A DNA stretch of 34,006 bases from a virus. The translations under genes and the position numbers were made by a program. Positions 11,082 to 31,326 of the stretch are shown here, piece by piece (within the stretch, counting starts at the first letter, position 1; each line of letters begins with the position of its first letter). The notes beneath the pieces were generated by a model that was not told the origin of the DNA, did not search any database, and saw only the letters and a program-made list of their open reading frames with translations. The stretch spans positions 1 through 34,006 of IMG/VR virus record IMGVR_UViG_3300010430_000285; one strand, 5' to 3'.

Positions 11082-11439
11082 TACTGAGGTTTCGTGGGAA
11101 CTGGCCACTCGCCAGTCGATTGACGAATACTACGATGGCCTGCTCAATGGCAAATCCCTGCGGGCCGTTGTGATTCGTTTGGACGGGAAAGTGTCAGGGG
11201 TCATTGGTATCATTAAAGATATGCAAGGCCCGAAGTTCTTTTCGGATCTGGATGATGAAGTTGATCCGAAGGCCTTTACTGTTTTGAGGGCGATGTACGT
11301 TGTTGTTGGATGGGTCCGGAAATACAAGGTACCGGTACACGCAATTGCATCGCACCAGACCGGAGCCGAGTTACTAAGCAAACTTGGCTTTGAGCATTTT
11401 GATGAGGACATTTACTTATGGCAACCGCACTCTTTGTAG
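11065..11439 (+). CDS. GNAT-fold-like small protein (T7 gp13-position)
   Basis: A 124-residue protein coded between the nozzle and the internal virion proteins, the place occupied by gp13 in T7-like phages. The sequence has a GNAT look: a central strand KVSGVIGIIKD, a helix VLRAMYVVVGWVRKYKVPVH, and an ending AELLSKLGFEHFDEDIYLW that resembles the last strand and 'LGF' motif of acetyltransferases. No clear Q/RxxGxG/A acetyl-CoA loop is visible, so it may be an inactive fold used in assembly. The start overlaps the nozzle gene by 17 bases with only a weak ribosome site, which suggests coupled translation. Confidence 0.62.
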   Translation: MTNEANTEVSWELATRQSIDEYYDGLLNGKSLRAVVIRLDGKVSGVIGIIKDMQGPKFFSDLDDEVDPKAFTVLRAMYVVVGWVRKYKVPVHAIASHQTGAELLSKLGFEHFDEDIYLWQPHSL

Positions 11440-11954
11440 CAGGCATGGCATTAGCCGGAGGCGGCACCTTACTTAAAGGTAAAGCCGCTAAAGATGCTGC
11501 TGATGATACTGCCGAATCTTTACGCAGAAAGGCCGGAACCACAAAGGCTATCGCTACCCGAAAAGTCGCTTCTGAAATAGAGAAGCGTGATGTTCTTATT
11601 GGTACAGCTCGCGCCCAGGCAGGCAAGTCTGGATCAAACCTAAATGACAAATCCATTGTTGAGAATGAAGCCGACATTATGGCCGAGGGAACTTATCGGG
11701 CATTGATGCAGATGTGGGAAGGCAACAACGAAGCTGAAGGCATGGAAGAACAGGCCGAGATTGTTAAGAATGAAGGTAAGGCGGCATGGAAGTCCTCTAT
11801 CTTGCAAGCAACCGGCACGGTTATGAAGGGTGCTGCAAGCATGGGAATGGGTGGTGCCGCTGGTTTGGGTCCAAGTGCAGCGGCTCAAGCTGGTAATAGC
11901 AATCTTGCTGTCTATCAGGGTGCCACCAATCAAGGTATGGGGGTGTTAGCCTAA
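11418..11954 (+). CDS. Internal virion protein, small (T7 gp14-like)
   Basis: Likely an ejected protein that forms part of the channel across the host envelope. The 178 residues begin with a short hydrophobic Ala/Gly segment (ALFVAGMALAGGGTLL), continue with a long Ala/Lys/Arg/Glu-rich helix typical of gp14-like proteins (AADDTAESLRRKAGTTKAIA), and end in a Gly/Ala/Met-rich hydrophobic part from about 130. GAGGA precedes ATG 11418 by nine bases. The stop and the next start share one base (TAATG). Identity rests on composition and gene order. Confidence 0.75.
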   Translation: MATALFVAGMALAGGGTLLKGKAAKDAADDTAESLRRKAGTTKAIATRKVASEIEKRDVLIGTARAQAGKSGSNLNDKSIVENEADIMAEGTYRALMQMWEGNNEAEGMEEQAEIVKNEGKAAWKSSILQATGTVMKGAASMGMGGAAGLGPSAAAQAGNSNLAVYQGATNQGMGVLA

Positions 11955-14071
11955 TGCCTAAGATTATTGATGAAACAGTTTACGGGCAAACGCCAGCACC
12001 GGTAGACCGGCGCACGGTTGTTAAAGGTGACAGATCCGGAGTAATTCTTGGAGAAGGAGTTCAGTCACTAGGTCAGGACATGATGGCCGTTGGCGGTGAA
12101 ATGATAGATCGCCGCGATAAGTCGATATTTGCCGATGGCCGGTCGAAGTTCCTTCTGGCCGATGCGCAAGCTCGCCGGAAAGCAATGGAAGATTCTAATG
12201 ACTACGAGAATTGGGAGGGCAACTACCGTGAGAACATGAACAAAGTTCTCAGTGAAATGAGCGGTGCCTTCCGGAACAACGAACATAAGAATCAGTTTCT
12301 AACCGAGGGCAAGCTGACTATTGAGCGCGGTGGTAATGCGATCTTTGGCGAATCCTTCAAACGTGAGATCGATGATAACCGTGCAACCGTTGTGAACAAC
12401 AACGAGGCACTGCTCCGTGAATTGGAAAATACTGCGTTGAGCGATCACGATACCCGCATGGCTTTGATCGCCCGTATGAACGACAACATTAATCAGGCCC
12501 AGCTAAACGGGTACTACACGGCACCTGAAGCGGAAAAACTCCGCATGTCCACATCCAGTCGTGCTGCCGAAAGTTACATCGGCATGATGGACTACGATCA
12601 GCAAATTAAGATTCTTGGCAATACAGCGGCCAGTTCGGTTGATGGGGTGGCCGGATCGGACACTGTTCTGGCTCACAGTCAAAACATTATCGACTCAGGG
12701 AAGGCTCAAACCAATCCGGATGGTTCTATAACAACTTTCAAAGGATCGGTTGTTACTGAGGATTGGCTTAACGATGGCAAGCCAACTCTGATTCCTACCT
12801 TTTGGGATGGTAAGCAGTACGACATTTCAACCGATGAAGGCATGAAGGCAGTTAAGGAAAAGGTCGAGGCCAGCGGAAAAACTTGGCCTTCTGCCGACAC
12901 CATTGATGAAGCGTTAGCAATGGAGAAAACGATCCATGACGAAATGGAGAAGCAAGGCCGAGGAGGCGTTGCCGATCTGTTGATGCCGAGTACGCGAAAG
13001 CAGATGCTTCGCACCGCTCAGAATGCCTCTGCTGAAGAACGGGTCATGGAAGTCATTAATGACAATGCCAGCGAGATCGTTGATACATCGGCAAGTTTGT
13101 CTGAAGCGCGAAAGCAGGCCCGATCACTTGAAGGTATTGATAGTGATATTGATGCCCGTGCCAGAGCAAGGCTGGCCACCGAAGTTGAACAGCGTTGGAA
13201 GGAAAAAGAACAAGCCGAAAAGGATGCCCAGGACGAACTGTTTGAAGGGTATCGTGAAATGAAAGAAAAAGGTGAATGGTCGTGGAACGAAGCAAGTGGC
13301 CTTGAGCAAAAGGCTATTATGGACAACTTGCCACCGGACTATATTGCCGCTCTTAAGGAACCGGCCTCCACTGAGCATAATGAAGATCTGTATCTTGAAT
13401 TCTTGGGCATGGATCCGGAAGAACAGCGAGCAGTGAAACTAAGCGAATATGAACGTCAGCTTGATACAGCTCACTATCATAAGGTTCGTGACATAGTTGG
13501 TGAAATGCGCGGTTGGCCGGTAGGCAACAAGTCCAGCGGCAAGCGCGGACCGCAAGGAACGAAGGTCAATACTGTGAACAGTGCCGTTACTGATCGCTTA
13601 GGCGGAACGGATCTGCGGAGAACCGACTTCGGTAAGAGGTATATGGACCGTGTTCAGATTGAGATCGACAAACTGGAAGAAACAATTGGTGCTGGCCAGT
13701 CCGGTTATACCGATTGGACGAAGATCATGGATGTTCTTGATGCCGAATTCATCGTGACATATCAGGCCATTGATGAAGGAATCGTTGGGGTATTCCCGTT
13801 CGCAAGCGGAATGCGAAGTCAGGAAATGGATACGTTGAAGTGGGAACAATGGTCTAAAGACAAAGAAAACCAAGAGGATTTCCGCGGCATTAATTTACCG
13901 GTTTCTGAGATTCCCGATTGGGCCTTGATCGAAATATACGATGGTTTTGAGGCGGCTGGTAATGCCAACCCAAATGACACGGAAGTTTCTTACAAATTCT
14001 TAAAAGACTATGTTGGATTGAAAAAACTTCGTTACCCGCAGGGTGAAGCGAAGTCACAGGGATCAAAATAG
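11954..14071 (+). CDS. Internal virion protein, large (T7 gp15-like)
   Basis: A 705-residue, highly helical and charged protein between the small internal protein and the giant gene, as gp15 stands before gp16 in T7. The first ~110 residues (LGQDMMAVGGEMIDRRDKSI) and the long helices to residue 250 and from 345 on are typical of internal core proteins. Residues 255-332 look like an inserted domain with a pattern KPTLIPTFWDG...GKTWPSADTIDEALAMEK that I have seen as a small module in other phage proteins; its role is unknown. The stop TAG overlaps the GTG start of the giant gene by one base, so the two are translationally coupled. Ejection with DNA is inferred. Confidence 0.75.
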   Translation: MPKIIDETVYGQTPAPVDRRTVVKGDRSGVILGEGVQSLGQDMMAVGGEMIDRRDKSIFADGRSKFLLADAQARRKAMEDSNDYENWEGNYRENMNKVLSEMSGAFRNNEHKNQFLTEGKLTIERGGNAIFGESFKREIDDNRATVVNNNEALLRELENTALSDHDTRMALIARMNDNINQAQLNGYYTAPEAEKLRMSTSSRAAESYIGMMDYDQQIKILGNTAASSVDGVAGSDTVLAHSQNIIDSGKAQTNPDGSITTFKGSVVTEDWLNDGKPTLIPTFWDGKQYDISTDEGMKAVKEKVEASGKTWPSADTIDEALAMEKTIHDEMEKQGRGGVADLLMPSTRKQMLRTAQNASAEERVMEVINDNASEIVDTSASLSEARKQARSLEGIDSDIDARARARLATEVEQRWKEKEQAEKDAQDELFEGYREMKEKGEWSWNEASGLEQKAIMDNLPPDYIAALKEPASTEHNEDLYLEFLGMDPEEQRAVKLSEYERQLDTAHYHKVRDIVGEMRGWPVGNKSSGKRGPQGTKVNTVNSAVTDRLGGTDLRRTDFGKRYMDRVQIEIDKLEETIGAGQSGYTDWTKIMDVLDAEFIVTYQAIDEGIVGVFPFASGMRSQEMDTLKWEQWSKDKENQEDFRGINLPVSEIPDWALIEIYDGFEAAGNANPNDTEVSYKFLKDYVGLKKLRYPQGEAKSQGSK

Positions 14072-17000
14072 TGGATGATTTTTACAAAGAAGATGCGCCT
14101 GACTTTTCTGATGAAGATGAACACACCTATGATGCCGCGGATCGGGTAAGACAACTTCGCTCGCAGCAAGATGCTGTTCGCGGTGCATCGATCCGTAGTG
14201 CCACAAAGCAGAATCCAGACGAAGCAAGAAAGGCCCGTGATCTTTCTGAGCAAACTAAAATCCCTGAACGGATGGTTAAGGGCAATGCTGATGTTGTTGA
14301 GGAAGGCATTCGCCAGCAAGAAATTAATGAGGCTATTCAAGATACAACAGTTGTAAAACGGCACATGTCCGATCCGGACACCGCAGCTCGCATCCACGAT
14401 GACGCAGAGAATCTGGCTGAAATGGAACGCCGGTTCGGTTACATGACCGAAGAATTTCCGAGTCTACCTGAGTTTGAAGAAGCGTCTTGGACCGATACCT
14501 TATTTGAAGATCGCTTTGAAAAGATGAAGATCGGCATGGCTCAGACTGCCGTTCAAGCAAGACACTGGATCAACGATCAGGCTATTCGTGACTACAATAT
14601 CCAGCTTCGTCAGGATCCGGAGTTTGCGAAGCGGATGGAAGAAAAGGGATATACAGAAAAGCATCTGTCATTTCTTGAGTCCGAATCAAAACGATTGTCC
14701 GCAGCATCCCGTGAACTGGATGACATTTATAAAACTCTTGGCCCCTGGCAGGAGTCAATGACTTGGATGCAGCAGCAGGTCGATAGCGGCATAACGTCAT
14801 TTACAACTCAGTTGCCGACGATTGGTCTTTCAATCGTTACCGGTTCGGCCGCACCGACTTTAACCATTATGGGTTTGAGAACATTCTTTGACTCTTACGG
14901 CAACGGTCGCGCAAATGGCCTTGACCATGATTCAGCGTCAATCTTTGGTGCTATCGATGCCGGTATAGAGGTCGGTACCGAAATGGCACCGGAAAGAGTT
15001 TTCGCCAGTGCGAAAGGCTACAAGACCGGCCTTAAAGGTTGGGCCAAAGACTTTATCAAGCAGGAAATGATCGGTGAGCAGTTTGCTACGTTAGGCCAGA
15101 GTGCCAATGCTTACCTCCACGGCCTTGATGAAGAACTGAATCGTGCAAGAGAGGACGGTGATATAGGTCGCTTCTTCCGGATTCAGATGGAACGTCAGGC
15201 CGGAACGGTTATTGCTACAGCGGTCGGTGGTGGCCTTCAGTCAGGTATTGGTGGTGGAATTGGTTATGTGCAAGAGCGCATGTACCAGAAAGAATTCCAA
15301 AGCATGACGCAAAAGCAGCAGATCGAACATTTGGTCGGCGCGGCCCGTAACAGCAAATTGCGGGAACAGGCACCACGACAGTATTACTCAATGGTCCGAG
15401 ACATGGAGGACGAACATAACGTCCTGCTTGATGTTTACTTTGATACCGAATATCTGGAGCAGTGGCTCACAGAGCGCGGTGTAGATGTAACCAACTTGGA
15501 TCAGGAAAACCCAGCTTACGCACAACTGGTGAGAACGCTTTCTGAAGCCAAAGATACCGGTAACAAGGTAATGATCTCTGCGGCCCACGTTGCCGCATAC
15601 ATGGTGGATCAGGATAAGTTTGATGATCTGGTTCCTCACATGACAACAACTGCCGGTGCTATTTCTCAGGCCGAGATCGTTAAGGAAAAAGAATCCCGTG
15701 TAAAACAGGAACGGGAAGCAATGAAGATCATTGGCGAGGACAGTGATCTACGAGTCAAAATCGATGAGCATGTTGAAGGCATAAAGAAAGAGCTTGAGGA
15801 AGCTGGAAACTACACGGCCGAACAGATCGAGCTGTATGGTGATCTTCTGGCCACCAACATGTACACCAAGTTCGCAAAACTGAAAGGCCATATCCCTGAA
15901 GAAGAAATAATGGGTATGTTCAATATCGGCGTTGAAAAGGCCAGCACAGAGGAACGTGTTGAGCGAGTTCTTAATCAGGACGATCTTACGACAACGATCC
16001 TGAAGAAAAATTTGGAGGAGAGTCAAAACATCCAGTCGCTTCGCGGCGATCTGGATAAAGAACGCACGGCCCTGATCGAAGAACTGGATACGCTTCGCAA
16101 CCCGAATGACAATGACAGTTATAACTTCGATGAAGATGAGGCCGAGTTTGATCGGTTTTATAACGAGCAGGTTGCTATGGGCGATCTGGTTGATTCCGAC
16201 AAAGCAAACCGGTTGCTTGAGAACCAAGAACTGGCACCGGACCGCAAATGGAAAGGCAGTGATGCTGAGACCTTCCGTGAACAAGGTAAGGCCTATCAAC
16301 AGCGTGTTGCTGATCTTAACGATCAGATCGCCGCTCTTGATACCCAGCAGGAACAGATTGATGCCCGTACTGAAATGATTCTTCGCCGTGTCGAGCAGAT
16401 GCAGCGTGAAAATCCTAACCGGCCTACCGATGGCCGTGAGTTGCATCAGGATGAACTGGACCAGCTTAACGAAGAACAGAGTGAGATTGAGCGTGAGGAA
16501 CGGGTAAGATCTGCCGCCGAGAATGAGCCGAGCTTGATCGCCCAGGCATTCGATCAGTCTGGCGAGGTAACAACGGAGTTTGTTAAGCCAAGCACTGACG
16601 ATGGCCGTACTGCAATGATGTTGGGCAATGAGCTTTATGACAACATGGCGGGCCTGCCAGCAATTACAGTGAAGGAGATCTTTCAGAACGCTTTTGATGG
16701 AGTTAAAGCGGCCCTTCTTGATAAAGACGGTAATACCATTATTGGTCAGGGTGAGATTGAAGTAACAGTCGATGCCGTGTCCAGAACGATAACTATTACT
16801 GATAACGGTATTGGCATGTCCAAGCAAACCGTTAAAAAGGCATTTCTGGTAATGGGCGGCACAGAGAAAAACAGCGGCCGTGATTCTGGTGGTCTTGGCA
16901 TAGCTAAGATGGCCTTCCTGTTCGGCAATGAAAACATTTATGTAAGCACAACAAAAGACGGTAGAACAACTCAGTTCAATACTACCGGTGCTGTTCTTCA

Positions 17001-20000
17001 AAAAGGAATAAGGAAGGACAGTGTTGAAGGTGTTGTCATTTCTGATTACGAGTCAGGCAAACCAAGCGGCACATCGATCACCGTAAAATTGCCTAAAACT
17101 TTCTATCATCCAACAAAAGGTCGTGATGTTCCCATTAATTTCAATCTTCGGGAAATGAAGGAAGTTGTTGAGGACAGTCCTTTATTTGAAAACATAAAAA
17201 CAACATTTACTGTAAGGAATAATCCAAGAGCATCGGACAAACGAAAGGGTTTGGATCGGAGAGAGTCCAGCGAAGTAGTCATGTCCGGATCGGAATTACC
17301 GGCTGAAAGTTACACGTTGTTATTTGAGTACGAAGCGGCGTGGGGAAAGATTCAGGTAATTACTGATAAGGATGCAATGGAGTCCAAACCAAGAGGACAT
17401 AATGCTTACGTTCTTTCCAACGGACTGTTCCAATTTAAAACCAGTGTTACCGATGGAAGTGGGAAATGGACGGATAACAACATTCCGCATGAGTTCTTTT
17501 TCAACATTATTCCTAACCCCGATATGAGTGCCGAGCATCCAGGCTATCCGTTCCGCATGGATCGGCAGGGTCTTAAGGAACTGCATGAGCAAGAACTTTA
17601 CAAGATCAAGAGCCGCATCACCAGTGCTTGGGTTTCAACACTTGTTCAAGACACCGTAAACAACTACGGGTCATTCCGTCAGTTTGAAGGCGGCGTTCTT
17701 GGTCAGGCCATACGAGAAGTTATCACTGACACTCAAAAGGCAAGTCTGGATCCGGTTGATTTCAATGGCCGTGTGAATGATAAATCTTCATACAGCAATG
17801 GCGTATGGACTAATGACAACAGAGATACGCTGGTACTCAATAGTGAAAACCTGAATGACGGTGTTGACAGAGATCTTGGTGCATTCCAAGTCGATTACGA
17901 AGTGGATGCCAGCAAGCCGATTCTGCATAACGGTGTGAACGCATCGTTTGTAGATGATTCCGGCAATCAACGGGAAGTTGATCTGGTTCATCACATTAAC
18001 GATCAGTTTGGTCCGAAGGGCATTAACTACATGTCCGAAATGTCGGCCAGTGTTCTTGAGTTAAGAAACGCTATTGCAGAGGTGTTCCCGCGGTATAGCG
18101 ATCTGACCGGTGTGCCGGTCGGTGTTTCTGCCCTTTCAAACGGGCCGGACAGTATTTTATGGGGTGTGAATGTCAAAGTGCCATTCAACTCCATACTGAT
18201 TAATCCGTGGGCTACGCCACTGGACCCGTGGTTGAGTGATGTAATTCAAACGGAAGAAATGTCAAAGAGTGAGCGTATCAGTGCGATTGCCAGCTCAATG
18301 ATTTCAACAATGATCCATGAGTTTGTTCATCACACAGTAAGCGCGCATGAAATAGATTTCATTTTGGAGCAACAGCGTCTTACCGATGCGCTTCATGCTA
18401 AGTGGGATATGGCAGGTTTCCGTCTGAAGATGGAAAAATTGATCCGTGAAAATTATGAGGTATTTGAATATGGCAATCGACTCTATGAGACAAAAAGCAT
18501 TAAGCCTTCTTCAGAGTTCGTTGAAGGACAGGAAAGCTCCAAAAAGATCGGAGATCGATTCACAACTGGTGACTTATTTGACACTGGCCAAGAAGGATCG
18601 GATGCCGCAGGAGTGGATAGCGGCACTAGAACAACTGAGACTAGAACTGAGAGCGAGTCAAGACCTGACCCAATTCCTGAATCCTACGAAGGCCTGACTC
18701 GGATCAATCCTGAAGAAACCTTAGAGTTTCTTGAGGCCCGTGTTGGCCAAGAGATTGATGGCACCGGCATGATGCAATGGGGCATGTTGCAGGACATGGG
18801 TATTGGTCGGGTGATGGCCCAACGTAAAGACGGAAAGATTCGTTACCTTTTCCTGTCGGCCGATCACAAAACTCAGAAGCATTTTGAGTCTTACAACAAC
18901 CTGTTCAAGTTTGCAGAGGAAACGGCAGACAAGCTGGCTAATAAGCCGGATGCGGCTGGTGCAATTGAGCTGGATATTTTCGAGGAAACTACCCATGAAA
19001 AACCAACCAACGATAACGAGCAAAGCGGGCCTGGGGGGAGTGAGCAGTTCACAGAATACGAAACTCCGACTGGCTCACCGGCTCAGTCTCCAGAAGAACG
19101 GCAAGCCAGCGATGTACGGGTCAGTGAAGAAACGGGATCGCAAACCCAAAGTTGGCTTGAGCCGGAACAAACCTTCAACACGGATCAGTTAGTACAAGGT
19201 GATTATCGTTACAGCGAGTTAAACGATGAATTCATGGGCCTGATCGATGAGGCTTATGAACTGTCTATACAGGAAGGTGAAATACCTGCTCCGGTGGCTG
19301 GTGATCGCCAGACTCATAAACGCCGCGAAGCATTCATGGCAGGTTTCCGTGAAGGCTTTAATGCGAAAGACGGTGAGAAGCGTTCATTTAAGAACCCAGC
19401 GAAGGTCGCTGGTTACAAAGCCGGTTTCGATGCCCGTGATGACAGTGCCGAGGAAGGCTCATGGTTATTCGGTGACGGACTTCGTGCAACGATGCTTGAG
19501 CGTCAGGCCGAGGCCGCAATACAAATTGGCAAGTGGAAGGAAGAAGCTCTTAAGATCGGTCAAGAACAGGACAACAGCGACAAGATCATAATCTCTTTGT
19601 TCGACTTCTCTGGCCAGTGGAGTCAACCGTGGATTGATGCTGGTTACTCTGTTTATCAGTTCGACATTAAATCGAATGAAAACTTGCTGGCTACGGAGTT
19701 CCTTGAACGCTTTGATGAGTATGTAAGAGATTCCGGTGCGCAGATACACGGCATCATTGCTGCGCCACCATGCACTTCATTCGCGGCCAGTGGTGCGCGT
19801 TGGTGGGCAGAAGAACACGATGTTGATAGTCGTGAAATGGTTGAAAAGAAATACGGCGGTTGGGCCGCTGAGTATTATTCAAATCCATTGCATGTTGCGA
19901 CTTCAATGGCCGGTGTTGCTCAATACTTTGTCGATGCCTACAGTCCTACTTTCTTTGCGATTGAAAATCCGATTGGCCGGATGCAATCTGAAATGGGGTG

Positions 20001-23000
20001 GCCTTCGCCGCAACTGACATTCAATCCGTATGCTTACGGCGATCCGTACACTAAAAAAACTCAGATCTTCGGTAACTTCAATGGAGATCTGCCGCTCAAT
20101 CCAGTGTTCCCGCTTCAGGGTAGTCAGATACACAAGTTGACTGGTTTTAATGCTGCCGATAAAGCAGCACGATCTGTCACTCCGCAGGGTTTTGCCTATG
20201 CGTTCTTTATGGCAAACCATGAAGCAGGCCCTACCCGTGAAAACCCAATGACTCAGGATCAACTGGATCAGCAAACCTTAATGTCGTTCTCTGAGTTCAT
20301 GTCGTACACCAATATGGTTACGAAACTTCAGAAAGTATATGACTTCCCTGGCGGATGGTCGATAGATGAAGAAGTGCTTCGCAACTACGGTGAATATGAT
20401 AACTACATTAAGCATTGGGAACACCCATTGCTGGACGAGATCAGAGAGCTTCGTAAAAACGGTAATTTTGATGATATTGCAGAGTTGCAGGATCGTGTTG
20501 ATTACGACACCACATTAAAAGAAAAACTTGCGAGAGCGAGAGCAATAGTCAGCTTGGTTAAAGACCTTAACGGTGCTGCCAGTGATGCCTACACACTTAT
20601 GTTTGAAAACATGAGTGACAAAGTTGCAATGCTGGAGCGTTATGGCTTCATAAAAGACGAACCGGAAACGTCCGGCCCGTTCTTTAATAATGACGGTCTT
20701 ACTGACGAGAACATTAACCGTGCTGTCACAATGCTGATGGATAACCATAATGATGATGAAATCATTTTAAGATCCGGCCTTGATGGCGATCAGCTCTATT
20801 TCTTGAAGGATGCGATAGAACTGGAGCAGGACGAATCACGGGTAGCAAAACTTGAAGAAGAAATTCCGGATCCGGAGCAGGTCCTTTCAGATCGTCAGGA
20901 ACTTGTGTCGCAGGCCCGTGAGTTTTTAACAAACATGGAGGCCAACACTTTAGAGATATTGGGTGAACTTCAGAACGGCCATAAAAAAACAATTACATGG
21001 GATCTGACCAACGGATCCAAGTTGGTTCTGAATCTACCGTGGGCCATACAATCTTCTAATCTTGATACCAGCTATGTAAGTAAGCTGTATCTTGGTTGGG
21101 ATTCTATTAACGCCTTTGTTGACCACGATCAGTATTTAGAAATACCGCTCGACACCGAGAACGATTACAAACTGTCTAAGTTTGTTTATCGCAACCGGCC
21201 TGCTTGGAAAATAGAAAACACCAGAACAAACGAAACAGTGAGCTATCTGGTCCAGATGAAATCTAAGCATAAAGATGGAGCTTTCCAGCTTTATTCGGTT
21301 GCTGAAGATGGCGAGGTTGGTAAGCAAATTGAGGGAAGGCACAAGCATTTTCATAAAGCTGTGATGGCCCCAATGAAGTTTGACACTTCAAACAAAAAGC
21401 TAATGAAGTTTGTCAAAACTATTTTGGATACACCGCGAGGTTTTAGTCCGAGTTCTTACAACAGCAATGTTGATGCGTTCCATAAACTATTGATGAAAAA
21501 CGCTGGCATGTCTATGGCAGCTCTTATCACTCGCCGTGAAGCCGCACATATTGTCGGTAAAGAGACTGTTATAAATGCAATAGAAATGTCGTCTAAAGAT
21601 TTTAACCAATATCTTATTGATTCTGGTGCTGGCAAGAGAGCAGATAACGGCCTTTATTATTTGAATGGTATAGATCAAGGTGCTTGGGATTTTAGGAAAA
21701 ACATGGCGGAAGGAAACCTTGAATGGGTTTCTATGACCGCCGATGAGAAAAGCATTAGCCGGATCCTTGATGATGGCCCGCTTCTGGATCTAACGACCGA
21801 AGAAGCGAAGTTGGAAAAATCAATACAGGGCCGTGCCGCTAAACTGGCAAATGCAGATCAGAATAAAGACAGCAAGATCGATGAGAAGTCCGGCCAGCGC
21901 GAATTGCTTCAGAGTAAAAAAGCTCACAAAGCGGCTCGCGTTACTGCGGGCCTTTACGAATATCGTGAGTGGACCATTGAACAGATGGAAACCGGTCACT
22001 GGAACCTTCGCCCGACTGCACAAGAAGAATGGACCGATGCTGCTGAGACTTTAGGTGAAGCCAAAGGCCTGATTGATATGTACACCGAGCAGGCGGAGAA
22101 CTCTGAGCCTGGCCAACGTGAATTGTTCAGCATGAGTCAGGACGATCTGTTTGGTCCGCAGTATGAAGCAGAGGAGGACAAAAGTTCTCGTCACCAGAAG
22201 TATCGTCATGGAGAAAGTTTTGTTCAACGTGCTTATAGCGCGGGAATGAGTGCTAACGGTGATTTGATGAAAGGGATTGAGGCGCAAGCACCAATCGGGA
22301 TCTCTTTGGATTCTTTGTCAGCGGCCAATCTAAAAACTCTCGTTCAGTATGCCGCTTCTGGTGGGTATGTGTTTGTTGATACTGGTGCCTTCGCGGTTCG
22401 TCAACGCAATGCAAAAGTCGTTGAGGCCGCATCTAAAGCGGAACAGCAGCAGGCCGGTCTGTTTGGTGATGAGACTAAACAGGAAGCACTTAATGACGAT
22501 CAGGTAATGAAGCAGTTACAAACGCTTCACGACATGATTCAAAACAACGGCATCCAGCCTGAAAACGTAATGATGGTTATGCCGGATGCAGTTGGTGATG
22601 TTGAAGAAACATTCCGGTTGCTTGAGAAACATGCCGAGCAGTTGCAATTGATGATGGCCGAGGGTGCCAAGTTCATCATGCCGATCCAGACTGGTTCTGG
22701 TTATTCGGCTGACCAAGTGTATTTGAAGGTCATCGATATTTTGCAGCAGGGCGATCCGAACAAGTTTGTCTCATTTATCACGGGAATCCCGTCAAATGCA
22801 GATGCGATGAGTTCAGAAGATGTTGGCAAACTGCTCAAGACAATCCGTGGTGAGCGCATTCACATTTTGGGAGCTGTATCCGAAGAAACCGCAGGGCCGC
22901 GTTTGAAGCAAATCGCTGATTCTGGTGAGGCCTTTGACATCACTATGGATGCCAACGTAATCCGTGCTGCTATCTCTGGCAAGGGCCAACGTGATGAGCA

Positions 23001-26000
23001 GATAGAAAAGGCCTTAGCGGGGATCATTGAAAAATCGGCAGATCCGTTCACACCTCCGTTCTATGGTCCTAAGCATGACGATTTCATTAACGATGAAGGT
23101 GTCCGATCCGGACAGCAGGGCAATAGTCGGATCGAGCTTCCGTTCAAAGAGGTGACTCGTAGGGTTGAGGAAGTTCAGCGGGCCGTTGAAATGCTGGAAA
23201 TGGGTGAGATCACCAAAGACCAGTATGACGAGATTGTGGCCGAGCATAAGCCCTTTACACCGTATGACGCTGTTCCTAAGCCTTCCAGTCGCTCTGACAT
23301 GGAATCGGCACTCAAGTCCTCACAGATCCCGTATATCGGCCTCACAGACGAACTGGAGGCCGGTCAGCCGGTTGCTCTGCGTCTGGACATTCCAGCATAC
23401 AAAGATCATGGACAGTGGGTTGTAACCATTCACGGGCCTTCTAAGGGCCAGTCTGCCGGTAAACGTCTGGCATACAACAGCTACGGGGCCGTTAGTAACC
23501 CCGTATTTGCCGCTCCTGAGAATCCCGCTATCAAGACTGCCAAAGGTGGTCCGAAGGCACCATACGCCCGAATTGAGGGTCAGTGGGTGCCTATGACCGA
23601 GGATGAGGCCATTGCACAGGCCGAGGCCGCGTTAAAAGATCCTGCCTGGGCGCAAGTCGGATACGATCCGGAGCGTCACAGTTTCTTTTGGGATCGTGAA
23701 ACCGGTGAACCGATTGTTGGCGGATCTGAGGTAATTCAGGTGTCCGGTCTGGTTCTGGTTAAAGATCCTCAGTATGCGGACAGAGCTGACTTCCTTTATT
23801 CGGCACCGCTTGAAGAAGGCGAAACTCCGAGGGGCCGGTTGCGGTTCCCTGACGGTAATTACCTGATCGGGCTTTTCAATGCCGCGGATGCTTCTACCCC
23901 GATTCACGAATTGGGCCATATCTTTTTGGAGAACGAGATCCGGATCTTTAATGATCCACGGGTACCGGCCGAACTGAAAAGCGATGAAGAAAAGATACTG
24001 AAGTGGTTTGGTATCGAATCATGGGATCAACTTGAAGATCATCACCATGAGAAGTGGGCGGATTCGTTTGAAGATTACTTCGTTACCAGTGAAGCACCAA
24101 CACCGGAACTGAAAAGAATGTTCCGGCGTTTCTCAAGCTGGCTAACCTTTGTGTATCGCCGGTACAAGAGTCGTTTTCAGAAAACCGAGTTGAACGATGA
24201 AATGCGTAATGTGTTTGATCGTTTGCTGGTTACTGAAGAAGCACTTGAGGCCGCTAAAGCAGAGCAGGCCTATGGACCTATGTTCAAGACTGCCGCTGAA
24301 GCTGGCATGGCTCCGAATGTCTTTGCCAAGTACCGCGAAGAAGATCCTGATGCCGATGAGTCTGCGAAGGAAAAATTGCGGGTTAAGGTACTGAGGCGTT
24401 TGCGTCAGACAACGATGAAGGCATGGAAAGAAGAACTGGCCGATGTTCAGGAAGGTGTTCGGGCCGAACTTGAAAACCTGCCGGTCTATCGTGCGATCCT
24501 TGCAATACGCGGTGATGAAAATCTCCAGATGGATCGTCAGCTTGTTTACAAAATACTTGGCCTTCCGGATCCGAAGATTCCGAAAGAGCGCAGCGTAGAT
24601 AAAGTCGATCCTGAATACGACACAATCTTGGTGGCCATTGCAAAATTGGGAGGTATGGACCGCGATGAAGCCGCAGCAATGGGTGTTGATCCCGCCATGT
24701 GGCACAAGCGGAACCCAGGCAACTATCCGGAGGAGGCTGGTAAGAAGCCAATCTTCCGTGCAGTAACCGGTCGCAAAGGTAGTGAAAAACGGGGCATGAC
24801 TGCTGATGCCATGCGTGAGCGTTTAGTTGAGCTTGGCTATCTGCAAGACTCCGGCATTGACCAGCAAACCGGTGAGGGTGTAACGGATTCAACGATCAAT
24901 GATTTGATGGATGCGATCTTTGCCGAGATTTCCGGTGAAGCTCAATACTCAGTTCACGCCGATCTGTCACTGGCCTTTGCCAACATGCCAGATGAGTACG
25001 TTGCTGAAATGGAGCAGCAACAGCGTGATGCTAAATCGAAAGCGGCCAGACTGAGGCGTTTCATGCCTCCACTGGCTATCCGCGGTCTTTCTAAGATCAA
25101 TACCGCAAACAAGATCTATGCTCATCCTGACGCTGTTGCAAACCTGTTTGGTTACGGGTCTGCGGATCATATGCTTCAAGAGATTTTGGCCGCCAAACCT
25201 ATCGATAAAGCGGTGATTGATCGGGCCAATGAAATAATGATGGAGCGGCACGGCGATCTGTTGAATGACGGAACTCTGGAGCAGGAAGCAATGGAGGCCG
25301 TTCACAACATTGAACGTGGTGAGCAGATACTTGCAGAGCTGGATGCTCTTTACGACAAGTTGTATCCCGATCAGGCAGAAAAGAAACGGATCAGACAAGA
25401 GATTCGTGAAGCTGCAAGAACAATGATTGCTCAAGCTCAGATCGGCCGGTTGCGTCCGGAACGCTTCAGAACTGCGGAACTTAAGGCGGCTCAAGAAGCG
25501 GCCGTTGCTATGGCTGAAGGGGATCTTGCTAAGGCCCATGAAGCCAAAGCGAAGCAGTACCTTAATTTCCACCTTTACCGTGAAGCAGTTAAGGCCAAGA
25601 AAAAAGCTGACAGCATTACTAAGCGTTTGGCCAAGATTGAGAAAACGAAATACAAACCCTCTACGCATAACATGGAGTATGTGAAACGGGCCAAAGCTCT
25701 TTTGGCGGCATTCGACTTCCGGCGCAGCAGTAAGGAGGCCCGTGCAGCGGCTCAAGAACTGGTTAAGGAATTTAACGCTTGGGTCGAAAAGGAAAACGGA
25801 TCTCAAGAAAAGGCTTCTGCCGGTGCAATACTTAAGTTTCATCTTGACGGTGCGGTAAGGCATTACCGTGAAATGACGTTGGACGAATTGGAAGGCCTTA
25901 ACACGGTTGTTGGAAACCTGATGGCAACCGGTAAGTCAGAGCGTGATGAAGAACGGGCGAAGTTCAATGCTGAGAAGAAAGAAGATGCTGCGTGGATCAA

Positions 26001-28131
26001 TAAAGCGGCACCAAGAAAGGTTCTTCCGCCAGAAGGCATGATTGAAAAAGGCTTTGTCAGATCCTTCCGAGTTGCTTCGGCGTATGTTCGTAAGTACGAA
26101 AGCATTGTTCGTCAGGCTGACATGATGAAAGACATGGGCCGGATGTGGAAGCAACTGGTTAGGCCGCTTCTTCATGCCGCTCGTACCCAGGCAGAAATGC
26201 AGGAAAAGGTTCATAAGGATCTTCAGAAGATATTTGAAGGTCACGGAGAACTGTTCAGCTTTATCGGCAGGAACGCATTAAAAAGGCATGTAAAACTGGA
26301 CAGCGGTGAGGACTTTAGCCTTTCACCTTCGGCCGTTGTTGCTATTGCACTCAATTCCGGTAACTCATACAACCGTGCTGCATTGGTTAATATGCCAAGT
26401 CCTATAATGACAGACAACGACATAGATAAAATTCTGGCATTAGTAACAGAGTCAGAATGGGATCTGGTTGAACAGGTTTGGGATTACCTTGATTCTTGGT
26501 GGCCTCAGATCCGTGATCTTGAAGAACGCACTTACGGTGTTGCTCCGCCTGCTGTTCGAGGAGAACCGTTCACGCTACCTAATGGCCGCGTGATTAAAGG
26601 TGGTTACTATCCGCTGATTAGAGATAAAGATATTTCAATCCGCAATGCTGTAGAAAACACTGGCGAACTTATGGCCGGTGAAGATATTGCTCAGATCGGT
26701 CGGGATATGCTTAACGGTAAAGGCCACTACGCAGCAACTAAAAGAGACATGGCCATTGAGCGTACTAGTTGGGGTAATCAGCAAGTTCTCTTGAGCGTTG
26801 ATGGTTTGTTTAATCACATGGACATGGTGATCCATGATCTATCTCATCGTGAAGCGGTCCGTGAAGTATGGAAAACGCTGGTTCATCCGGAGGTATCGGC
26901 AGCTCTTAAATCCCGTGTTGGTGATGAAAACTATCAGAACATGTTGGACACAGTGATGCGTGTTGCCGCCGGTCATATTATGCCGAGTGAGTTGTCGCTT
27001 ATTTCCCGCGCACTACGCCAGTCAAGACTGACGATCACGATTGGTTCTTTGGCCAACTCCATAAGAACTTTCTTCATGCAGGTTCTTGGTGGGCTTACGG
27101 CCCAAGTAGAAATGGGTACCGGAACGCTGCTTCGGGGGGCCGCTGACTTTTACAGCGATCCTATCGGCAATTACCAGATGATTATGGAGAAGTCATCGTT
27201 CATGCGAGATCGTATGGAAACTATGAACCGTGATACCGGTGCGGTGCTTCGTGAACTGAAGGGTATCCAAGTTAATGAAAAAGTTCTTGCGGCTTCTTTC
27301 CGGCCTCTGGTTGCTGGTGACATGCTCATTTCCACCAGCGTTTGGATGGCCGCTTACAACGATGCTCTTGCTCGCGTTGAATCAAACGCAGAAGAAGATT
27401 CAGGGTTTGAGAACGATCAGGATGCAATTGATTGGGCTGACCGAATGGTTGCGAGAACACAGCAGTCCGGTCTGTTGATGGATCTGTCACCGATTGAAGC
27501 TCAGAGTGAGGCCGTGAAGGTTTTCACCGTCATGTACTCAGCGATGAATGCTATTTATCAGATGCTTGTTGAACAAGGCTACAAAGCCAAGTTTGGTAAG
27601 CAGGCAACGTGGAAGTCTGTGACGAATATTATGTACGTCATCATTATGTCGGCTCTCTACGAAACCTATCTGTTTGATGATGAGAATGAGGACGCTGATT
27701 TTGAGGATACGTTATGGCGATACACCAAGAACATCGCCACATGGCCATTAGGTCTTATTCCTCTGGCCAGACAGATCGGCACCATGATTAAGTTTGGTGG
27801 TGATGCCCCGCAAGCTCCGTATGAGCGAGTTATGGAGATCCCTGGCAAGGCTTATACTCAGATAAAGCAGGGCGAACTGGATCAGGCCGCTATCAAAGCA
27901 CTTGGTTGGTTGGGTGCTATGTTCAAATTGCCTACCGGCGCACCGGCCACAAGGCAAGGTGCTTACTTGGTAGAATACGCGAAGGGCGATGAAGGTACGG
28001 AACCAGAATGGAGTACATGGGAGTTCTTGGCCACCGGTCCTCAAGATGACACCGAAGCGAAAAAGATAAAAGTTAAATCCAACAAGGCCCGCAAGGAAGC
28101 GCGGGAAGAAATTGAAAGGAGATCACGATAA
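14071..28131 (+). CDS. Giant polyvalent protein (4,686 residues), probable ejected virion protein
   Basis: An uninterrupted frame of about 515 kDa starting at GTG 14071, with CAGGGA eight bases upstream and no other early Met. Visible order: acidic helical N-terminus; hydrophobic Gly/Thr-rich segment 240-275 and Gly-rich 370-400; coiled helices 550-840; GHKL ATPase 844-1016; HEFVHH 1416-1421; methyltransferase-like 1837-2050; unrecognised 2055-2735; TGT-like 2738-3000; polyvalent-associated module 3101-3240; HELGH 3279-3283; Lys/Ala-rich helices 3700-3920; hydrophobic C-terminal segments near 4324 and 4519-4535. The set of domains and the gene's place after internal virion proteins match 'polyvalent proteins' of phages, thought to be injected to counter host defences (DarB of P1 is a known example). 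The size far exceeds T7 gp16 (1,318 residues). Host-defence and DNA-protection roles are inference. The very long frame makes sequencing frameshift unlikely. Confidence 0.85.
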   Translation: MDDFYKEDAPDFSDEDEHTYDAADRVRQLRSQQDAVRGASIRSATKQNPDEARKARDLSEQTKIPERMVKGNADVVEEGIRQQEINEAIQDTTVVKRHMSDPDTAARIHDDAENLAEMERRFGYMTEEFPSLPEFEEASWTDTLFEDRFEKMKIGMAQTAVQARHWINDQAIRDYNIQLRQDPEFAKRMEEKGYTEKHLSFLESESKRLSAASRELDDIYKTLGPWQESMTWMQQQVDSGITSFTTQLPTIGLSIVTGSAAPTLTIMGLRTFFDSYGNGRANGLDHDSASIFGAIDAGIEVGTEMAPERVFASAKGYKTGLKGWAKDFIKQEMIGEQFATLGQSANAYLHGLDEELNRAREDGDIGRFFRIQMERQAGTVIATAVGGGLQSGIGGGIGYVQERMYQKEFQSMTQKQQIEHLVGAARNSKLREQAPRQYYSMVRDMEDEHNVLLDVYFDTEYLEQWLTERGVDVTNLDQENPAYAQLVRTLSEAKDTGNKVMISAAHVAAYMVDQDKFDDLVPHMTTTAGAISQAEIVKEKESRVKQEREAMKIIGEDSDLRVKIDEHVEGIKKELEEAGNYTAEQIELYGDLLATNMYTKFAKLKGHIPEEEIMGMFNIGVEKASTEERVERVLNQDDLTTTILKKNLEESQNIQSLRGDLDKERTALIEELDTLRNPNDNDSYNFDEDEAEFDRFYNEQVAMGDLVDSDKANRLLENQELAPDRKWKGSDAETFREQGKAYQQRVADLNDQIAALDTQQEQIDARTEMILRRVEQMQRENPNRPTDGRELHQDELDQLNEEQSEIEREERVRSAAENEPSLIAQAFDQSGEVTTEFVKPSTDDGRTAMMLGNELYDNMAGLPAITVKEIFQNAFDGVKAALLDKDGNTIIGQGEIEVTVDAVSRTITITDNGIGMSKQTVKKAFLVMGGTEKNSGRDSGGLGIAKMAFLFGNENIYVSTTKDGRTTQFNTTGAVLQKGIRKDSVEGVVISDYESGKPSGTSITVKLPKTFYHPTKGRDVPINFNLREMKEVVEDSPLFENIKTTFTVRNNPRASDKRKGLDRRESSEVVMSGSELPAESYTLLFEYEAAWGKIQVITDKDAMESKPRGHNAYVLSNGLFQFKTSVTDGSGKWTDNNIPHEFFFNIIPNPDMSAEHPGYPFRMDRQGLKELHEQELYKIKSRITSAWVSTLVQDTVNNYGSFRQFEGGVLGQAIREVITDTQKASLDPVDFNGRVNDKSSYSNGVWTNDNRDTLVLNSENLNDGVDRDLGAFQVDYEVDASKPILHNGVNASFVDDSGNQREVDLVHHINDQFGPKGINYMSEMSASVLELRNAIAEVFPRYSDLTGVPVGVSALSNGPDSILWGVNVKVPFNSILINPWATPLDPWLSDVIQTEEMSKSERISAIASSMISTMIHEFVHHTVSAHEIDFILEQQRLTDALHAKWDMAGFRLKMEKLIRENYEVFEYGNRLYETKSIKPSSEFVEGQESSKKIGDRFTTGDLFDTGQEGSDAAGVDSGTRTTETRTESESRPDPIPESYEGLTRINPEETLEFLEARVGQEIDGTGMMQWGMLQDMGIGRVMAQRKDGKIRYLFLSADHKTQKHFESYNNLFKFAEETADKLANKPDAAGAIELDIFEETTHEKPTNDNEQSGPGGSEQFTEYETPTGSPAQSPEERQASDVRVSEETGSQTQSWLEPEQTFNTDQLVQGDYRYSELNDEFMGLIDEAYELSIQEGEIPAPVAGDRQTHKRREAFMAGFREGFNAKDGEKRSFKNPAKVAGYKAGFDARDDSAEEGSWLFGDGLRATMLERQAEAAIQIGKWKEEALKIGQEQDNSDKIIISLFDFSGQWSQPWIDAGYSVYQFDIKSNENLLATEFLERFDEYVRDSGAQIHGIIAAPPCTSFAASGARWWAEEHDVDSREMVEKKYGGWAAEYYSNPLHVATSMAGVAQYFVDAYSPTFFAIENPIGRMQSEMGWPSPQLTFNPYAYGDPYTKKTQIFGNFNGDLPLNPVFPLQGSQIHKLTGFNAADKAARSVTPQGFAYAFFMANHEAGPTRENPMTQDQLDQQTLMSFSEFMSYTNMVTKLQKVYDFPGGWSIDEEVLRNYGEYDNYIKHWEHPLLDEIRELRKNGNFDDIAELQDRVDYDTTLKEKLARARAIVSLVKDLNGAASDAYTLMFENMSDKVAMLERYGFIKDEPETSGPFFNNDGLTDENINRAVTMLMDNHNDDEIILRSGLDGDQLYFLKDAIELEQDESRVAKLEEEIPDPEQVLSDRQELVSQAREFLTNMEANTLEILGELQNGHKKTITWDLTNGSKLVLNLPWAIQSSNLDTSYVSKLYLGWDSINAFVDHDQYLEIPLDTENDYKLSKFVYRNRPAWKIENTRTNETVSYLVQMKSKHKDGAFQLYSVAEDGEVGKQIEGRHKHFHKAVMAPMKFDTSNKKLMKFVKTILDTPRGFSPSSYNSNVDAFHKLLMKNAGMSMAALITRREAAHIVGKETVINAIEMSSKDFNQYLIDSGAGKRADNGLYYLNGIDQGAWDFRKNMAEGNLEWVSMTADEKSISRILDDGPLLDLTTEEAKLEKSIQGRAAKLANADQNKDSKIDEKSGQRELLQSKKAHKAARVTAGLYEYREWTIEQMETGHWNLRPTAQEEWTDAAETLGEAKGLIDMYTEQAENSEPGQRELFSMSQDDLFGPQYEAEEDKSSRHQKYRHGESFVQRAYSAGMSANGDLMKGIEAQAPIGISLDSLSAANLKTLVQYAASGGYVFVDTGAFAVRQRNAKVVEAASKAEQQQAGLFGDETKQEALNDDQVMKQLQTLHDMIQNNGIQPENVMMVMPDAVGDVEETFRLLEKHAEQLQLMMAEGAKFIMPIQTGSGYSADQVYLKVIDILQQGDPNKFVSFITGIPSNADAMSSEDVGKLLKTIRGERIHILGAVSEETAGPRLKQIADSGEAFDITMDANVIRAAISGKGQRDEQIEKALAGIIEKSADPFTPPFYGPKHDDFINDEGVRSGQQGNSRIELPFKEVTRRVEEVQRAVEMLEMGEITKDQYDEIVAEHKPFTPYDAVPKPSSRSDMESALKSSQIPYIGLTDELEAGQPVALRLDIPAYKDHGQWVVTIHGPSKGQSAGKRLAYNSYGAVSNPVFAAPENPAIKTAKGGPKAPYARIEGQWVPMTEDEAIAQAEAALKDPAWAQVGYDPERHSFFWDRETGEPIVGGSEVIQVSGLVLVKDPQYADRADFLYSAPLEEGETPRGRLRFPDGNYLIGLFNAADASTPIHELGHIFLENEIRIFNDPRVPAELKSDEEKILKWFGIESWDQLEDHHHEKWADSFEDYFVTSEAPTPELKRMFRRFSSWLTFVYRRYKSRFQKTELNDEMRNVFDRLLVTEEALEAAKAEQAYGPMFKTAAEAGMAPNVFAKYREEDPDADESAKEKLRVKVLRRLRQTTMKAWKEELADVQEGVRAELENLPVYRAILAIRGDENLQMDRQLVYKILGLPDPKIPKERSVDKVDPEYDTILVAIAKLGGMDRDEAAAMGVDPAMWHKRNPGNYPEEAGKKPIFRAVTGRKGSEKRGMTADAMRERLVELGYLQDSGIDQQTGEGVTDSTINDLMDAIFAEISGEAQYSVHADLSLAFANMPDEYVAEMEQQQRDAKSKAARLRRFMPPLAIRGLSKINTANKIYAHPDAVANLFGYGSADHMLQEILAAKPIDKAVIDRANEIMMERHGDLLNDGTLEQEAMEAVHNIERGEQILAELDALYDKLYPDQAEKKRIRQEIREAARTMIAQAQIGRLRPERFRTAELKAAQEAAVAMAEGDLAKAHEAKAKQYLNFHLYREAVKAKKKADSITKRLAKIEKTKYKPSTHNMEYVKRAKALLAAFDFRRSSKEARAAAQELVKEFNAWVEKENGSQEKASAGAILKFHLDGAVRHYREMTLDELEGLNTVVGNLMATGKSERDEERAKFNAEKKEDAAWINKAAPRKVLPPEGMIEKGFVRSFRVASAYVRKYESIVRQADMMKDMGRMWKQLVRPLLHAARTQAEMQEKVHKDLQKIFEGHGELFSFIGRNALKRHVKLDSGEDFSLSPSAVVAIALNSGNSYNRAALVNMPSPIMTDNDIDKILALVTESEWDLVEQVWDYLDSWWPQIRDLEERTYGVAPPAVRGEPFTLPNGRVIKGGYYPLIRDKDISIRNAVENTGELMAGEDIAQIGRDMLNGKGHYAATKRDMAIERTSWGNQQVLLSVDGLFNHMDMVIHDLSHREAVREVWKTLVHPEVSAALKSRVGDENYQNMLDTVMRVAAGHIMPSELSLISRALRQSRLTITIGSLANSIRTFFMQVLGGLTAQVEMGTGTLLRGAADFYSDPIGNYQMIMEKSSFMRDRMETMNRDTGAVLRELKGIQVNEKVLAASFRPLVAGDMLISTSVWMAAYNDALARVESNAEEDSGFENDQDAIDWADRMVARTQQSGLLMDLSPIEAQSEAVKVFTVMYSAMNAIYQMLVEQGYKAKFGKQATWKSVTNIMYVIIMSALYETYLFDDENEDADFEDTLWRYTKNIATWPLGLIPLARQIGTMIKFGGDAPQAPYERVMEIPGKAYTQIKQGELDQAAIKALGWLGAMFKLPTGAPATRQGAYLVEYAKGDEGTEPEWSTWEFLATGPQDDTEAKKIKVKSNKARKEAREEIERRSR
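16600..17120 (+). other. GHKL (Hsp90/histidine-kinase-like) ATPase domain in the giant protein
   Basis: Residues 844-1016 of the 4,686-residue protein. The N box is E869-x3-N873-x2-D876 (KEIFQNAFDG), the first glycine box is DNGIGM (911-916), and the second is SGGLGIAKMA (from 939) with the following helix. These are the ATP-binding motifs of the GHKL superfamily. No histidine-kinase dimerisation or H-box is seen, so an Hsp90/MutL-like ATPase that changes shape with nucleotide is more likely. Its target is unknown. Confidence 0.88.
18262..18480 (+). other. First zincin-type metallopeptidase site in the giant protein
   Basis: H1416-E-F-V-H-H1421 lies in a helix SSMISTMIHEFVHHTVSAHE and fits the HExxH zinc and catalytic motif. 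A third ligand could be one of the acidic residues in the next 60 positions, such as those of LIRENYEVFEYGNRLYE. It follows the ATPase domain at about 400 residues, a pairing that suggests protein remodelling with cleavage. Activity is inferred from the motif alone. Confidence 0.65.
19579..20220 (+). other. C5 cytosine methyltransferase-like domain in the giant protein
   Basis: Residues 1837-2050. Motif I is LFDFSGQWSQPWIDAGY (1843 on) leading to an acidic FDI; motif IV is APPCTSF with catalytic Cys1901; motif VI is ENPIG (1965-1969) where most relatives have ENV; motif VIII-like KKTQIFGNF follows at 1995; motif IX-like RSVTPQGFAYAFF ends the domain. Only some 30 residues lie between the last two, where a target-recognition region of 80 or more is normal. 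It may be a non-specific or partner-guided enzyme, or an inactive binding domain. Confidence 0.75.
22282..23070 (+). other. TGT/DpdA-like base-exchange (transglycosylase) domain in the giant protein
   Basis: Residues 2738-3000. The order matches a TGT-type TIM barrel: VDTGAF (D2770, compare DSGG of tRNA-guanine transglycosylases), MPDAVGD (2838-2843), MPIQTGSGYS, ITGIPSNA (near 2905), RIHILGAV (2929-2936) and FDITMDANVIR, where D2960 lies at the place of the nucleophilic Asp. No cysteine cluster follows, so the structural zinc site of true TGTs is missing. DpdA relatives insert 7-deazaguanines into DNA. This domain may act on DNA, on tRNA, or only bind. Confidence 0.72.
23368..23790 (+). other. 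Polyvalent-protein-associated module in the giant protein
   Basis: Residues 3100-3240. The stretch VALRLDIPAYKDHGQWVVTI, then the Pro/Asn/Lys-rich middle, then VGYDPERHSFFWDRETGEP and VIQVSGLVLVKDPQYADRAD is a recurring module in large phage and plasmid polyvalent proteins. The reference function is not known to me. Its presence supports the polyvalent interpretation of the whole protein. Confidence 0.68.
23860..24120 (+). other. Second zincin-type metallopeptidase domain in the giant protein
   Basis: H3279-E-L-G-H3283 in STPIHELGHIFLENEIR, followed at 3324-3336 by HHHEKWADSFEDYF, which resembles the E-x2-A-x2-F-E pattern that supplies the third zinc ligand (E3327) in phage and plasmid zincins. 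It directly follows the polyvalent-associated module, a common order in this class. Cleavage of host defence proteins or self-processing after ejection are possible roles, both inferred. Confidence 0.75.
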
Positions 28132-29042
28132 TGAGTTCTACTGACCGCTATCTCGGTGCGCTGACCAGTTTGGCCATTAAAGCACCGTGCAAAGTAGCCA
28201 CTACCGGTAACATTACTCTCTACGGAGAGCAGACAATCGAAAGCAAAGCGATTGCTGATGGTGATCGCGTATTGGTAATGGCCCAAACCGATGCTAAAGA
28301 AAACGGGATCTATGTTTGCACACCGGCAGACTGGTTGCGGGCCTCAGATTTCGATGGCAATGATGATTTTGTCAAAGGAACATTCTGCGTTGTTAATGAT
28401 GCAATCACGCCGATCTATCAGGTTTCTTCTGAGAACGTCATTATCGGGACAACCGATATTGCTTTCGCTTCAGTCGATCTGCCTACTACCCCGCAGTTGG
28501 CAACATTAAACATTACCGCGGACAAGGCTAAAGCAGATTACATAGCGATCATAGATTCTTCTGGAGAACAAAACCGGATCTTGGCCAGCAACATTCCTTT
28601 GTCAGCGTTTGAAGATGATATAGGCATTCAATCTGCAACGACTTCTTCGGAGGGATTGGTTCAACTTGCTACTGATGATGAAGTCCGAGGACTTTCTGCT
28701 GCTAGTAGAGCTGTTACGCCTTCAGGTTTGGGCGGAATGTTTTATGCGCTTACTTTAGTGTGTGGCGCATCACCAACCATTTTAATCAAAACGCCGAATG
28801 TTTCTGGCTGGACAGTAACAAGGGAAGGTGCTGGCATATATAGAATAGATCACAATCTTGCCTTGACCAGTACAAATGACATGATGGTTTTGGTTTCAGT
28901 TAGAACAACTGACGTTTCCGATTCATACAGGGCGGCATCAACTGACGTTTATACGCAAAACTCATTCAAGGTTTACAACTGGGATTCTTCAAGCAAAGAC
29001 GATGACCACCTTATTACGATTTTCTGCATAAGGACCGCTTAA
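28131..29042 (+). CDS. Tail fibre protein
   Basis: Receptor-binding or adaptor fibre, 303 residues. The N-terminal part carries the common phage-fibre pattern: APCKVATTGNITLYGEQTIE, then ADGDRVLVMAQTDAKENGIY and WLRASDFDGNDDFVKGTFCV. The second pattern SEGLVQLATDDEVRG...AVTPSGL (about 180-205) is the short collar repeat found in many tail fibres, here once. The C-terminal ~95 residues are probably the tip. AGGAG precedes ATG 28131, and the stop of the giant gene overlaps the start by one base (TAATG). The short length suggests it may be an anchor for the downstream esterase tailspike. Confidence 0.82.
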   Translation: MSSTDRYLGALTSLAIKAPCKVATTGNITLYGEQTIESKAIADGDRVLVMAQTDAKENGIYVCTPADWLRASDFDGNDDFVKGTFCVVNDAITPIYQVSSENVIIGTTDIAFASVDLPTTPQLATLNITADKAKADYIAIIDSSGEQNRILASNIPLSAFEDDIGIQSATTSSEGLVQLATDDEVRGLSAASRAVTPSGLGGMFYALTLVCGASPTILIKTPNVSGWTVTREGAGIYRIDHNLALTSTNDMMVLVSVRTTDVSDSYRAASTDVYTQNSFKVYNWDSSSKDDDHLITIFCIRTA

Positions 29043-31103: not shown

Positions 31104-31326
31104 GCCAGAACTTGTCACGGTCACGGAATACCAGCGAGTTGAAGTGCCGCCAGTATTACTTGTGCCGTGTCCGGTTGCGGAGTTACCGCGCAAAGGTGTC
31201 ACATGGGAAGATCTGGCCCCGTATATCGCGGCGAAGCACCAACAACAGTTAGAATGCAACAAACGGTTTGACTGCATTCGCGCTTGGCAGAACGGAAACC
31301 CTAATGATTGTGGAGTAGATAAATGA
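30997..31326 (+). CDS. Outer-membrane spanin lipoprotein (Rz1-like)
   Basis: A 109-residue lipoprotein with a signal sequence and lipobox LLLTGC near residue 28, after which acylated Cys would anchor it to the outer membrane. Beyond it are a Thr/Val-rich and Pro-containing stretch (VEVPPVLLVPCPVAELP) and a C-terminal part with three more cysteines. The first 107 bases lie inside the i-spanin gene in a different frame. The end overlaps the tailspike start by four bases (ATGA). It is longer than lambda Rz1 (60 residues), so it may carry an extra periplasmic domain. Confidence 0.85.
   Translation: MSSKRVISWMIQTGGALLSVCLILLLTGCITRTVTEPELVTVTEYQRVEVPPVLLVPCPVAELPRKGVTWEDLAPYIAAKHQQQLECNKRFDCIRAWQNGNPNDCGVDK

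Follow-up and report, generated by a model that had tools for sequence, protein, structure and literature searches.

The DNA analyzed here (the window, 34,006 bases) is IMG/VR virus record IMGVR_UViG_3300010430_000285, a contig that holds a late module only and is therefore probably not a whole genome. It contains genes for a terminase, a portal-type head-tail adaptor, a major head protein, tail proteins and an internal virion protein, followed by a giant gene and, 3' of it, by tail-fiber-like and lysis genes. The giant gene (positions 14071-28131) is a single open reading frame of 4,686 codons that starts with GTG and has no internal stop, exactly as the first-pass annotation had drawn it. 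Each end overlaps the adjoining gene by one base, in TAGTG upstream (14069-14073) and TAATG downstream (28129-28133). That annotation had also placed the giant directly after internal virion protein genes, which agrees with a phrog_418 internal virion protein (11418-11954, 1e-16) and with a gene for 705 aa (11954-14071) that, by synteny with BPP-1-type phages, occupies the place of the structural lysozyme. Neither of these two proteins contains cysteine. The giant, its domains and the two genes before it are all encoded on the plus strand.

Two other proteins in the window were recorded. A 317-aa protein (4472-5425) matches phrog_3742, a family of unknown function, and likewise lacks cysteine; it may be a scaffold or a further internal protein. 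A 517-aa protein adjoining the spanins (31323-32876) matches GDSL lipase/acylhydrolase at 1e-5 and is perhaps an esterase of the tail or lysis module.

The two ends of the giant place it in a family. Its C-terminal core (residues 3240-4650, positions 23788-28020) matches phrog_9880 over residues 3249-4646 (E 2e-230) and could be aligned with 12 relatives; searched alone, the core yielded 594 confirmed matching stretches in IMG/VR. Members of phrog_9880 include Bbp10 of Bordetella phage BPP-1 and giants of Vibrio, Pseudomonas, Xanthomonas, Caulobacter, Acinetobacter, Cobetia and Nostoc phages, and where relatives are annotated, the giant comes after internal virion proteins or a lysozyme gene, usually ahead of a tail spike or fiber. 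The window gene has both the core homology and this gene order, which place its product among the short-tailed-phage giants of the BPP-1 Bbp10 type. Its N-terminal chassis (residues 38-610, positions 14182-15900) is common to Vibrio phages and 44 fetched ORFs, and begins with LPD22 (residues 38-122, Pfam E=5e-12), the polyvalent module already recognized in the first-pass annotation. One further Bbp10-type giant, in phage record BK063671, comes from a virus ascribed to Methanomicrobiales and has three cysteines, the most in the annotated family set.

Between these ends the family varies in length, from a middle of about 190 aa in Bbp10 and 550 aa in Vibrio phage 1.185.O to about 2,600 aa here, and the middle is exchangeable cargo. 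The next-longest complete member fetched has about 4,010 aa, which makes the window protein the largest of its family among those fetched. Several disparate enzymatic domains are joined in this one phage polypeptide, together with LPD22 and an HExxH zincin in the core, and it is thus a well-bounded variant of the polyvalent proteins, a general kind that is already known. In the closest relative, L018 (8747-9880), the same module of GHKL and peptidase precedes a weak ART-PolyVal match, at the place where a methyltransferase and a barrel sit in the window protein: a cargo swap.

The first cargo segment (residues 840-1240, positions 16588-17790) is an Hsp90/GHKL-type ATPase with the N-box (E..N..D, including its Glu) and the G boxes (DNGIGM, GGLGIAK) of a Bergerat fold. 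A Pfam scan of this slice of the giant found HATPase_c at residues 867-1008, scoring 29.7 bits where the cut-off is 26.4, and 58 of 59 family members matched HATPase_c or HATPase_c_3. The segment also gave a profile match to Hsp90/TRAP1 (1e-7), and its AF2 model (pLDDT 83.8) retrieved HtpG/Hsp90 structures with Foldseek (best E 3e-13), so that the GHKL motifs listed in the first-pass annotation are borne out at the level of the predicted fold. It is followed by a putative YgjP/WLM-type metallopeptidase (residues 1240-1500, positions 17788-18570) with the motif HEFVHHTVSAH, in which the HExxH lies at residue 1416 and a third His at +10. The H, E, H and H of this metal site are invariant in 59 sequences; among Pfam families the nearest were YgjP-like (31 of 59 members) and WLM (5 of 59), both scoring weakly. 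Two HExxH sites had been claimed, and both this one (HEFVH) and the core zincin (HELGH at 3279) are invariant across homologues and are therefore not chance occurrences.

Scans with single sequences returned no relatives of the GHKL domain or of the barrel described below; relatives of both were found with alignments built from loci L018/L019 and L136/L174. The ATPase and the peptidase travel together, as 60 of 62 distinct giants with GHKL also carry the peptidase. Among 84,980 cellular species genomes the pair occurred on one contig only, which makes it essentially a phage module. This single cellular relative comes from a 6.4-kb Deltaproteobacteria MAG contig and could be contaminating DNA or a fragment of a prophage.

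The second cargo domain is a C5-METHYLTRANSFERASE (residues 1790-2070, positions 19438-20280), for which motifs had been proposed and which now has a phrog_757 match over residues 1831-2061 (E=7e-40). Its PPCT and ENP motifs and SAM-binding loop are intact in an alignment with the giant of Pseudomonas phage 8P and with IMG/VR giants. On the methyltransferase tree, the embedded copies all group in a single clade apart from the free-standing phage copies (support 100/99), and repeated independent entry of the domain into giants is thereby ruled out. The embedded lineage occurs on chassis of at least two unrelated types, that of BPP-1 and a DarB-like one.

The third domain (residues 2700-3005, positions 22168-23085) was modeled by AF2 as an alpha/beta barrel (pLDDT 86.7), so that predicted structures of slices, a check suggested in the first-pass annotation, show both an Hsp90/GHKL fold and a TIM barrel. 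The Asp residues of VDTGAF and DAN (D71 and D261) are invariant in 59 relatives and lie at the strands expected for TGT and DpdA enzymes. Thirteen of the 59 relatives match phrog_887, "queuine tRNA-ribosyltransferase" (best 8e-8), and Foldseek against a viral fold library retrieved a mycobacteriophage queuine tRNA-ribosyltransferase (9e-5). The barrel profile aligned with one built from six phage DpdA-type proteins at a probability of 94% over 61 columns; of 20 column-shuffled controls, 19 fell far below this score and one exceeded it, which weakens this alignment. The window copy itself matched neither TGT nor DpdA profiles, Foldseek against the PDB gave generic TIM barrels with no TGT, and a PDB sequence search gave no convincing relative of barrel, core or methyltransferase. 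Tblastn searches of phages with free-standing relatives of the barrel as queries returned nothing useful. A classical tRNA-TGT was ruled out as close kin, as hhalign to a bacterial TGT gave a probability of 2% and PF01702 had no match in the phage records tested. Since the window copy lacks a TGT profile match as well as two near-invariant residues (S72 is T and Q145 is V; it sits on a long branch of the tree), we prefer to call it DpdA-like rather than TGT. It is confidently predicted to be a TIM barrel and is distantly related to phage DpdA. The earlier TGT-like assignment is upheld for the fold and by the phrog_887 matches of relatives; the enzyme identity is weaker than had been implied, the window copy having no direct family match.

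The distant relationship of the barrel to queuine tRNA-ribosyltransferases, and an Hsp90-like ATPase with a peptidase, which suggests protein substrates, might be taken to mean that the cargo serves not DNA protection but host take-over, by modifying host DNA or tRNA and cleaving host proteins. We consider this unlikely, as, among named proteins, those most closely related to the barrel are of the phage DpdA type and act on DNA (PMC6884629).

Two segments complete the middle. Residues 2070-2690 (positions 20278-22140) are an orphan segment with no homologue among the fetched loci, and residues 3010-3240 (positions 23098-23790) form a shared module of unknown function. The latter has no Pfam name and occurs in seven other giants on different chassis, with 33-37% identity where read. 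Thirteen distinct giants carry both methyltransferase and barrel. The first-pass annotation knew of no other protein with this set and order of domains and proposed a comparison of domain order. The set proved not to be unique, as all four domains also occur in IMG/VR 3300046615_000480 (loci L136 and L265); the order seen in the window was not found elsewhere.

The giant has a single cysteine, Cys1901 (codon at 19771-19773), where 42.6 would be expected (P ~1e-17), and this residue is the predicted nucleophile of the methyltransferase, within the PPCT motif. Cysteines were counted in 13 phages of the family. BPP-1-type giants contain 5 in 32,425 aa, compared with 191 in 21,023 aa of control virion and lysis proteins (Fisher 5e-70), and the two neighboring internal proteins contain 9 in 11,411 aa. 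Proteins proven to be ejected, namely T7 gp15 and gp16, N4 vRNAP (3,500 aa) and P22 gp7, gp16 and gp20, have none at all. The signature is not universal, since P1 DarB, which is virion-borne in a contractile-tailed phage, has 9 cysteines in 2,255 aa and is not cysteine-poor. The likely reason for the depletion is that the chain crosses the tail and the periplasm in an unfolded state, and thiols would form cross-links on that route. No mention of such a rule was found in a small search of open-licence texts.

It is very improbable that the depletion only mirrors the general composition of low-cysteine late genes and has nothing to do with ejection. Giants do differ from the controls in other residues, with Glu, Lys and Met up and Thr, Ser and Tyr down, but no residue other than cysteine falls below a ratio of 0.67, whereas cysteine stands at 0.02, and the portal, nozzle, capsid, spike and lysis proteins encoded nearby have 9.1 cysteines per 1000 residues.

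The same domains can be compared inside and outside giants. Free-standing barrels have 2.63 cysteines per domain, with none of 19 lacking cysteine, compared with 0.09 in giants, where 31 of 34 lack it. The barrel tree requires eight switches between free-standing and giant-embedded states, of which at least four are forced by supported branches; cysteine loss across these repeated switches indicates that depletion recurs with the giant context. For the methyltransferase, cysteines beyond the catalytic one number 1.64 per free-standing domain and 0.41 in giants, a loss that may be one event because the embedded copies form one clade. The catalytic cysteine is kept in 32 of 32 other methyltransferase-bearing giants, and retention of Cys1901 is the best indication here that the enzyme would work. 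Depletion is not absolute, as the L136/L265 protein has an extra cysteine cluster (CxxxxxCxxxC and CxxC, residues 3542-3755 of L265), perhaps a metal-binding or radical-SAM-like insert that escaped the cysteine purge.

These observations bear on whether the middle has any enzymatic role. The giant could be an ordinary ejection-channel protein with a large middle that is partly decayed or structural, as phages with 1,900-2,000 aa versions make do with the family ends, and the orphan segment and the divergent barrel would fit such a history. This is distinctly unlikely given that the GHKL, peptidase and methyltransferase catalytic residues are conserved at 30-50% overall identity, and that the catalytic cysteine was kept while every other one was lost.

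We favor, with a probability of about 0.68, a reading in which the giant is ejected with the genome and its cargo acts on the incoming DNA. The gene product would be the largest of the internal (ejection) proteins in a short-tailed phage of the BPP-1 type, and its conserved ends would package the chain and deliver it through the tail, with the middle as exchangeable enzymatic cargo. After entry the chain would refold in the cytosol, possibly by means of its own Hsp90-like ATPase and cleavage by its metallopeptidases, and the C5-methyltransferase, perhaps with the DpdA-like barrel, would modify the incoming phage DNA ahead of restriction. Injection with the phage DNA is very probable from family and composition, and the cysteine pattern supports both passage through the tail and an active methyltransferase.

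A methylase could act just as well ahead of packaging, and phage C5-methyltransferases can modify DNA at that stage. Taken with the position of the gene in the late structural cluster, this could mean that the giant acts in the producing cell, as a late product that modifies progeny DNA and is not itself delivered. We regard this as improbable, as the chassis is common to giants of internal virion clusters, the depletion is that of proven ejected proteins, and free-standing relatives of the same methyltransferase and barrel have normal cysteine contents. The proposal of a single-chain counter-defense device delivered with the genome is well supported, as regards delivery, by family membership, late-gene position and extreme cysteine depletion; a counter-defense role is a plausible analogy with DarB, and whether the target would be restriction or another defense is a guess.

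On the ejection reading, a more specific and doubtful idea is that the Hsp90-like ATPase and peptidase form a built-in chaperone-protease of ejected giants, which after cysteine-free, unfolded threading through the tail would refold the cargo enzymes and cut them loose in the new host. The basis for this is that the module is common in giants and nearly absent from cellular genomes.

The new result is one of composition; cysteine avoidance was absent from the first-pass annotation. Near-total avoidance of cysteine offers a test, from sequence alone, for proteins injected by short-tailed phages, in which a surviving cysteine can mark a catalytic site. Giant "hypothetical" proteins thereby become interpretable and the DNA-modification hypothesis directly testable. 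The analysis also brings out an Hsp90-like ATPase/peptidase module that recurs and a lineage of embedded C5-methyltransferases on unrelated giant chassis.

Among known systems, the polyvalent proteins (Iyer et al. 2017, PMC5512222) are similar in being phage-borne and in combining many disparate domains, including LPD22 and a zincin peptidase; GHKL, Hsp90 and tRNA-guanine were not found in the text of that paper. Phage DpdA, a 7-deazaguanine DNA transglycosylase, shares a TIM barrel with DSGAF and D-VGDQ motifs in order, but the similarity is distant and preQ0 genes were not seen in the window. IMG/VR 3300046615_000480 resembles the window protein in having its methyltransferase, TIM barrel, GHKL domain and metallopeptidase on a single frame. 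It differs in its order (methyltransferase-barrel-GHKL-peptidase), in its size of about 7,070 aa, as estimated from two loci that overlap, in having no detected BPP-1-type core and in its 9 cysteines.

Bbp10 of BPP-1 shares the C-terminal core with its zincin, the N-terminal part, the near absence of cysteine and a gene position behind those of the internal virion proteins and the lysozyme; it differs in having 2,052 aa with a middle of about 190 aa, compared with 4,686 aa and about 2,600 aa of cargo. The giant of Pseudomonas phage 8P (QIW89234.1, 5,145 aa) likewise lies in a virion module, is annotated as a structural protein and carries the same C5-methyltransferase (41% identity), with the catalytic cysteine as one of only two, but it has a DarB-like methyltransferase-helicase chassis, other ends and no GHKL match. 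The N6-methyltransferase and SF2 helicase dyad of DarB is absent from the window protein, which shares only the C5-methyltransferase with the DarB-like giants 8P, L098 and L099. The DarB-like gp69 of Burkholderia phage JC1 and gp75 of Bcep22 are podoviral giants found in virions, for which antirestriction has been proposed; as described, they are set apart by a DarB-like organization with a helicase (HepA) match. The 4,515-aa gp69 was detected in purified JC1 virions by 51 unique peptides (PMC9144972), and P1 DarB protects DNA in cis (PMC5512222).
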